64,000 bases of DNA from Hellea sp. (GTDB lineage: Bacteria; Pseudomonadota; Alphaproteobacteria; Caulobacterales; Maricaulaceae). This document shows, piece after piece, positions 43,208-43,731 of the stretch. Under the pieces are notes generated by a model. The model was not told the DNA's origin. It worked only from the letters and a program-made list of their open reading frames with translations, and ran no database searches. The position numbers were made by a program, and so were the translations under genes. Every line of letters starts with the position of its first letter. Positions within the stretch are counted from its first letter, which is position 1. Location: NCBI GenBank assembly GCA_020631215.1, contig JAHDHS010000006.1, positions 38,592 to 102,591 on the forward strand, written 5' to 3'.

Positions 43208-43259
43208 CCCCTTCTCCCATGGGGAGAAGGTGTCGCGAAGCGACGGATGAGGGGTTCCA
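43208..43259. repeat. Left palindromic flank of the DUF559 cassette
   Basis: CTTCTCCCatGGGGAGAAG hairpin + GTCGCgaaGCGAC hairpin + TGAGGGGTTCCA, inverted relative to the right flank. Confidence 0.85.
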
Positions 43260-43288
43260 AGCCTTGCGATATACGCTATTCTTCCGGC

Positions 43289-43639
43289 ATGAGTTTCGAA
43301 AAGAAGACCGCATTCGCGCGACAGTTACGAAGCAATCAAACCTCAGCCGAAGAGCTTATGTGGCAGGCTTTGCGTAACCGTCGTTGCGGAGGGTATAAAT
43401 TCAGGCGGCAGGTGCCCTTGGATAAATATATCGTCGACTTTTTGTGCCAAGCTCAAAAACTTATTGTTGAGATTGACGGGCCAAGTCATGAAGACAATCA
43501 GGATTATGATAGTGGGCGAACGGAAGTTCTTACGACCATGGGGTATCATGTCATCCGGTTTCTTAACTCTGATGTTTATGAGGATATAGATGGCTGTCTC
43601 GAAGCCATTTGGCAGGCCTTGGAAAATGCAAAACCGTAA
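43289..43639 (+). CDS. DUF559 / Vsr-like endonuclease-fold protein
   Basis: MSFEKKTAFARQLRSNQTSAEELMWQALRNRRCGGYKFRRQVPLDKYIVDFLCQAQKLIVEIDGPSHE...RTEVLTTMGYHVIRFLNSDVYEDIDGCLEAI; canonical DUF559 pattern. Confidence 0.92.
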   Translation: MSFEKKTAFARQLRSNQTSAEELMWQALRNRRCGGYKFRRQVPLDKYIVDFLCQAQKLIVEIDGPSHEDNQDYDSGRTEVLTTMGYHVIRFLNSDVYEDIDGCLEAIWQALENAKP

Positions 43640-43661
43640 GGTTTTAGAGACTCTCACTTTC

Positions 43662-43731
43662 TGGAACCCCTCACCCGCCTGCCGCGTTTTTTCAAAACGC
43701 TCTAGGCACCCTCTCCCTATGGGAGAGGGGG
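43662..43731. repeat. Right palindromic flank of the DUF559 cassette
   Basis: TGGAACCCCTCA + GCGTTTTttcAAAACGC hairpin + CCCTCTCCCtatGGGAGAGGG hairpin, mirror of the left flank. Confidence 0.85.

Follow-up and report, generated by a model that had tools for sequence, protein, structure and literature searches.

A DUF559 nuclease gene between mirror-rule palindromic repeats in Hellea sp.: a probable gene-bearing copy of a dispersed mobile element

The 64,000-nt stretch of Hellea sp. DNA analysed here (the window) contains a short gene of the DUF559 nuclease family that lies between two complex palindromic repeats, which raises the question of what joins this gene to its flanks. An earlier note on the same DNA had proposed a nuclease-repeat cassette that parallels REP elements and their RAYT transposases. 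Our preferred reading, to which we assign a probability of roughly 0.6, is that a dispersed mobile repeat is present here in a gene-bearing form and that its family has in DUF559 a nuclease of its own, which would cut its cognate folded repeat.

Layout of the locus and its copies in the genome

The features of the locus are as follows.
43210–43230, plus strand: left outer palindrome P1, CCTTCTCCC-atg-GGGAGAAGG
43232–43244, plus strand: left inner hairpin H2, GTCGC-gaa-GCGAC, with a GNA triloop on the purine strand
43245–43254, plus strand: left tag GGATGAGGGG, which mirrors the purine arm of P1 according to the rules for purine-motif triplexes (G.GC, A.AT, T.AT)
43248–43259, plus strand: left inner edge TGAGGGGTTCCA, consisting of the tag and the beginning of the element centre
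43289–43639, plus strand: ORF of the DUF559 (PF04480) nuclease, 116 aa
43662–43673, minus strand: right inner edge TGGAACCCCTCA, the left inner edge inverted
43667–43676, minus strand: right tag GGGTGAGGGG (minus-strand reading), which mirrors the right P1 purine arm GGGAGAGGG
43677–43707, minus strand: right inner hairpin H2, with a GCGTTTT/AAAACGC core and a GAA loop on the tag strand
43709–43729, minus strand: right outer palindrome P1, CCCTCTCCC-tat-GGGAGAGGG

The ORF is intact and is assigned to DUF559 with 139.1 bits against a Pfam curated cut-off of 20.6. Its only Pfam matches are DUF559 and REase_MTES_1575, so that no HUH/Y1 transposase lies between the repeats. The neighbouring genes encode an SDR dehydrogenase and PutA, and no methylase gene was found among them. 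The layout described in the earlier note, an ORF between two complex repeats, agrees with the sequence and its coordinates. The inverted repeat at the inner edges, TGAGGGGTTCCA/TGGAACCCCTCA, is present and reaches 16 nt at 94% identity in a longer form, while the outer inverted repeat of the arms extends over 26 nt at 88%. Both hairpins are found on each side, and on either strand none of the 200 dinucleotide shuffles of an arm folds as well as that arm (z −3.7 to −4.25). An Rfam search of the locus gave no match. The outer palindrome pattern occurs within the window only at the two arms (both strands of each match), against a chance expectation of 0.14. An in-frame ATG at window position 43247, inside the left tag GGATGAGGGG, would extend DUF559 to 130 aa, and the repeat might from its sequence play a role in translation too.

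What the earlier note had missed is that the tag mirrors the palindrome and that the outer palindromes are scattered over ~40 sites of the genome, mostly as gene-less pairs with the same ends as the gene-bearing copies. The palindrome CCYTCTCCC..GGGAGARGG has 43 exact matches per strand in the 2.55 Mb draft, with 0 for a reversed-pattern control; a search that allowed mismatches gave 71/73 matches versus 4/7 for the control. Most palindromes of this genome form inverted pairs ~90–130 nt apart with no gene between them, and all three DUF559 genes lie between inverted repeat copies, with a pair spacing of 410–500 nt. The solo repeats that the earlier note had proposed to look for thus exist, and they contain the full half-repeat (P1, H2 and the tag G[AG]TGAGGG) together with the centre of the gene-bearing copies. 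The left arm of the window is identical to a gene-less solo copy elsewhere in the genome (48/48 nt).

The copies fall into subfamilies. The window copy belongs to the one with the centre (C/T)TCCAAGCC..GTTCC, and its centre TTCCAAGCC is common to gene-less copies of the CTCCAAGCC/GTTCCAAGCC subfamily; copy L003 on contig C9 matches the subfamily with the centre TGTACCCAAGCC..GTACA. The inner hairpin varies as a module, with 20 distinct forms among the 44 half-repeats of this genome, and the H2 module of the right arm recurs in two gene-less copies (L102 and L119). As a separate observation, some inner hairpins in gene-less copies (L098, L099, L112, L117 and L120) are a nested TCCCTGC..GCAGGGA palindrome that resembles CGTC-type REPs, as if one repeat class had been inserted into another.

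The mirror rule and the association of repeats with DUF559 genes

Each half-repeat consists, in order, of the palindrome, a small hairpin and a tag that mirrors the purine arm of that palindrome. The rule admits the triplets of a purine-motif triplex, in which G lies over G and either A or T lies over A. Perfect mirrors were found in 104/139 arms, whereas letter-scrambled controls gave a mean of 20 and a maximum of 34, and the reverse complement gave 0. Among 92 arms with an asymmetric purine arm, the mirror order was perfect in 52 and the direct order in 5. Both window arms obey the rule perfectly. The tag follows the arm in each sequence class: purine arm GGAGAAGG occurs with tag GGATGAGG in 18/18 cases, GGGGGAGG with GGAGGGGG in 17/20, GGGGAGGG with GGGTGGGG or GGGAGGGG in 12/15, and GGGAGGGG with GGGGAGGG or GGGGTGGG in 7/8. 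In 42/44 half-repeats of this genome, P1 and the tag agree at their varying base. The gap between arm and tag is 2–3 nt in 104/219 arms and 2–7 nt in 110/219, the alternative being a hairpin, and a GNA triloop in this hairpin lies on the tag strand 57 times and on the opposite strand twice. GNA triloops are unusually stable in DNA hairpins. Because duplication and inversion yield direct or inverted repeats rather than mirror repeats, we read the mirror rule as probably reflecting selection on a folded single strand. A G-quadruplex as the cause of the G-tracts was considered and rejected, since it would not predict the excess of mirror over direct tag order (52 versus 5).

Repeats of this kind accompany DUF559 genes well outside the window. 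In a first sample of 114 DUF559 genes, taken from the family and class to which the window's bacterium belongs and from a few plasmid records, with the class sample weighted to high-scoring genes and some non-independent loci related by descent among the counts, a matching palindrome lay within 250 nt in 142/227 flanks versus 22/893 windows placed 250–1250 nt away at the same loci. Palindromes were present on both sides at 55/113 loci versus 2/437 controls, and the inverted-repeat score exceeded 32 at 68/107 loci versus 1/107 controls. An independent sample, similarly weighted and likewise including loci related by descent, comprised 80 named loci, mostly from alpha-, beta- and gammaproteobacteria with a few deltaproteobacterial, Marinimicrobia, Binatia and Chloroflexi records; it showed a perfect triplex motif within 300 nt in 104/155 flanks versus 14/747 further out, on both sides in 34/75 versus 0/347, and on at least one side at 70/80 loci. 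A recognisable motif is missing from about a third of flanks. Cyanobacterial DUF559 genes show the same layout in another sequence, CCCCC-AATTCT-GGGGG..TTTAGGGGG, and the E. coli DUF559 gene ycjD has triplex motifs just downstream. In Neisseria gonorrhoeae (L096), DUF559 is accompanied on both sides by CCTCTCCC..GGGAGAG-type repeats in direct rather than inverted orientation. The comparison of flanks among relatives, which the earlier note had put forward as a check, therefore finds repeats far above background in related genomes and in several phyla; the opposite outcome that it had named, repeats spread genome-wide with no enrichment at DUF559 genes, is not what was seen. The association of gene and repeat is well supported.

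The repeats differ in type. Type A has TCTCC arms and TGAGGG tags, and type B has CTCCCC or TTCCCC arms and mainly GGAGGGG or GTGGGGG tags. On the protein tree, which is short (106 columns) and has many unresolved forks, the types require 10 changes versus 28 when shuffled (0/500 shuffles), and within the window's bacterial family alone they require 3 versus 18.9. Ten genomes have both types, and labels shuffled only within genomes reached 10 changes in 1/5000 trials. Since the match with the nuclease clade is closer than that of labels shuffled within genomes, the repeat goes with the protein and not with the host, a pattern that would follow equally from joint inheritance without direct recognition.

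GIY-YIG genes of the same bacterial family served as a control set of 30 loci (L290–L319; for example L293, G000:C61:10118-10339 with flanks). Triplex repeats were found in 0/60 of their flanks. CGTC-type REP hairpins, by contrast, lay within 250 nt of GIY-YIG genes in 15/60 flanks versus 2/240 further out, and at DUF559 genes in 2/227 flanks. A strong inverted repeat was present at 13/30 GIY-YIG loci, and CGTC-type REPs in inverted copies flank small GIY-YIG genes. Such REPs apparently have no dedicated transposase (PMC3733652), and their pairing with GIY-YIG genes is unreported in the open-licence literature searched. Within one bacterial family, this double dissociation speaks for a match between nuclease family and repeat class.

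Movement of units and the enzyme

Duplicated units, polymorphic sites and interrupted genes bear on whether gene and repeats move together. One genome (G026) contains two 672-bp units that are 98.8% identical, lie in unrelated surroundings and end at outward-facing tags, and a second such pair (556 bp, 88.5%) occurs in G009. Congeners differ at the site of one G026 unit: G368 has no repeat, G361 has one gene-less dimer, and G363 has DUF559 in the opposite orientation between two dimers. The empty-site comparison called for in the earlier note thus finds one orthologous site that is empty, repeat-only or gene-bearing according to species. The dimer of G361 (L169 and L170 representing G361 and G363) is bordered by host CCGGGATT..AATCCCGG, as if it lay at the midpoint of a palindrome or terminator, and a target preference is possible. 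The site of the window copy itself was replaced by this other locus for the comparison because the SDR and PutA genes are not adjacent in congeners. Three further candidates were set aside: S. meliloti versus Shinella, where the site is empty and an IS element is inserted there too; Azospirillum plasmids, where every copy is filled; and E. coli ycjD, where the variation is a replacement by the eef operon (PMC12817139).

In Pseudanabaena galeata, a dimer-DUF559-dimer unit with outward tags at its ends lies in frame within a methyltransferase gene on plasmid pPg_02 (L207, about 1850–2460), and uninterrupted homologues of this gene are found in Aulosira and Azospirillum. The same methyltransferase apparently contains another gene-less triplex repeat in frame (SPLPPSPKEGEGGERSLAPLSR). 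On a plasmid of Synechocystis sp. B12 (L206, 1316–3840), DUF559 and triplex-type repeats apparently split a DUF1156 methylase gene, and in G007 (L186, 1507–2460) two near-identical DUF559 genes, both with type-B repeats, lie in tandem ~640 nt apart. No target-site duplication was seen at the units examined. Judged from these sequence comparisons, the mobility of the unit is well supported. Paralogous and orthologous DUF559 pairs give dN/dS values of about 0.05–0.2, indicating strong purifying selection and therefore a protein that has been kept working. The earlier note had suggested that the unit could be non-autonomous or domesticated; this selection and the near-identical units at two places in one genome suggest that the gene-bearing copy is instead autonomous.

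In the enzyme, D46, E57, D59, H63 and R73 in domain numbering (D50, E61, D63, H67 and R77 in the full protein) are among the residues that are invariant or nearly so, and the first four of them form the motif D..ExD..H. Foldseek searches with an AlphaFold model of the window protein (pLDDT 86) gave Neisseria 3hrl as the best match (E 2e-7), and phmmer identified the same entry, N. gonorrhoeae NGO0050, as a DUF559 homologue (E 7e-23); the description of PDB 3hrl gives a name only (endonuclease-like protein), with no activity. The best match outside the DUF559 family was I-Bth0305I (PDB 3r3p; E 7e-5, TM 0.80 over the target), and Vsr was a weaker one (E 0.03–0.08). The window protein is thus predicted to have the catalytic-domain fold of EDxHD homing endonucleases. 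A defence system was considered and rejected, the only PADLOC match being weak (PDC-S37, E 0.003) and the NCBIfam match (ProA) far below its cut-off.

On our preferred reading, a half-repeat would fold into a hairpin or triplex form when its strand becomes single, for example during replication. The mirror-image tag would cap the purine arm of the hairpin to give an intrastrand purine triplex, with a loop of ~3 nt or a small, usually GNA-looped hairpin between purine arm and tag. DUF559 would recognise its cognate folded form and cut or nick at or beside the repeat, and a unit or a gene-less repeat could then arrive elsewhere in the genome, either through repair that uses another copy or because the released piece is joined in. 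Gene-bearing copies would be the autonomous members of the family and gene-less copies the non-autonomous ones.

Alternative readings and relation to known systems

The strongest rival, which we regard as unlikely, is pure homing into existing repeats, in which a free-standing DUF559 would cut gene-less repeats and copy its own gene into them by recombination of the arms, the repeats being spread otherwise. Homing would account for I-Bth0305I, a homing endonuclease, as the best fold match outside the family, for the common ends and centre of gene-bearing and gene-less copies, for the site with a solo repeat in G361 and DUF559 in G363 and G026, and for the pairing of GIY-YIG, another homing-type nuclease family, with a different repeat class. 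It does not account for whole G026 units, including their dimers, at sites with unrelated flanks, or for the unit in the methyltransferase gene, which brings its own outer tags. These whole-unit moves indicate that movement is not limited to the conversion of existing repeats. Two genomes of the window's bacterial family (G041 and G049) have 22 type-B palindromes each and no detected DUF559 gene, so that the repeats there either outlast the nuclease or manage in its absence, and repeat counts do not differ significantly between DUF559-positive and DUF559-negative genomes when gene-adjacent copies are subtracted (p=0.12). Both observations weaken our preferred reading, and the persistence of repeats without the gene fits it and homing alike.

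It is improbable that another enzyme, or accidents of replication or repair, move the repeats and that DUF559 is captured cargo. Several genomes do have repeats without DUF559, and solo copies far exceed gene-bearing ones, as this explanation would lead one to expect. Set against it is the recurrence of one gene family, in several phyla, with repeats unrelated in sequence, as well as the tracking of nuclease clade by repeat type within genomes; cargo would moreover be mixed, whereas the sampled GIY-YIG genes were never found in triplex repeats.

A housekeeping role, with DUF559 as a Vsr-like repair nuclease for T:G mismatches or folded DNA and the repeats as its substrate or regulator, seems less probable still. 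It draws on the weaker fold match to Vsr, on the earlier relation of YcjD-like proteins to Vsr (PMC1189080) and on Caulobacter VsrA, which has a Vsr-like PD-(D/E)XK fold like the window protein and contains a DUF559 domain. According to passages of its paper (PMC12907096), VsrA is connected with a cytosine methylase, being needed for the SOS response in cells without the ScmA methylase, and is read by its authors as a mismatch-repair enzyme; its gene is likewise unlinked to a methylase gene, and palindromes, inverted repeats and mobility are not mentioned in these passages. The cytosine methylase link by which Vsr is recognised is lacking at the window gene, which has no neighbouring methylase gene. 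A housekeeping role also fits poorly with the patchy distribution of DUF559, with 0–5 copies per genome in one bacterial family and as many as 10 in a single genome from the class, and with duplicated units in unrelated flanks and an insertion inside a coding gene. Plain intrinsic terminators or composition artefacts, expected at any small gene, would explain short G+C-rich hairpins beside genes and can scarcely be the answer, given control windows at 2–3% in the same loci, none in the GIY-YIG flanks, a layout that includes tag, inner hairpin and centre, and units with defined ends.

Rhizobial RIME elements, reportedly described by Osteras et al. in 1995, are said to be bipartite palindromic intergenic repeats of similar size. 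The parts of the element studied here are known separately. Intrastrand triplex motifs were described as PIT elements, TM_ECO and BoxC by Holder et al. 2015 (PMC4666352, citing Hoyne et al.). Like the repeats studied here, they have a pyrimidine arm, a purine arm and a mirror-image purine third strand, and are intergenic, present in many copies and often arranged as inverted pairs. Their second loop is about 3 nt, whereas here it is often a hairpin of 13–36 nt; for the same reason the window arms fall outside the ITxF definition, which sets loops of 1–6 nt. A TM oligonucleotide of E. coli forms a stable triplex in vitro, no triplex footprint was seen at the motif in vivo, and there is more rearrangement around it (PMC4666352). 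These motifs showed no association with transposons, phages or plasmids, their flanking genes had no common function, and no nuclease partner was described (PMC4666352), in contrast to the DUF559 gene found here between repeats.

The parallel with REP/REPIN elements and RAYT drawn in the earlier note is borne out by the enrichment of repeats at DUF559 genes, the gene-less copies and the polymorphic orthologous site; both systems have palindromic repeats dispersed as inverted pairs, a nuclease-type gene enclosed by two such repeats, and numerous copies that lack a gene. The enzyme of REP/RAYT is an HUH/Y1 transposase and its tag is GTAG, whereas here the enzyme is DUF559 and the tags are G[AG]TGAGGG(G), GGAGGGGG and GTGGGG, and the repeat, unlike REP, obeys the mirror rule. 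Because the two defining features of REP/RAYT are absent, we do not place the element in that family; it is best read as analogous to REP/RAYT, unrelated to it, and served by a nuclease with a homing-endonuclease fold. I-Bth0305I, the closest solved fold outside the DUF559 family, is a multi-domain phage enzyme whose target spans nearly 60 bp (PMC3943268), whereas the window DUF559 is a single domain of 116 aa between repeats. No report that pairs DUF559, including ycjD, with repeats was found in the open-licence literature, and prior work elsewhere is possible. Within that searched literature, the pairing, the link of the mirror rule to nuclease clade and the mobile unit appear to be new.

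More tentatively, and with slightly less than even confidence, we suggest that dispersed palindromic repeats outside the RAYT world may be mobile and served by structure-matched homing-type nucleases (DUF559 with triplex repeats in several phyla, GIY-YIG with CGTC-type REPs), each of which would recognise its own folded strand. DUF559 is a widespread nuclease family with no agreed role, and here an orphan repeat family and an orphan gene family appear to make up a single mobile element between them. If they form one mobile system, gaps in the understanding of the repeats and of DUF559 would close together, and the cause of repeat-linked instability would become testable; the interpretation of VsrA-dependent DNA damage in Caulobacter would also be affected. 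The element would then rely on three-stranded DNA folding instead of a plain hairpin, and on an enzyme unrelated to the REP transposases.
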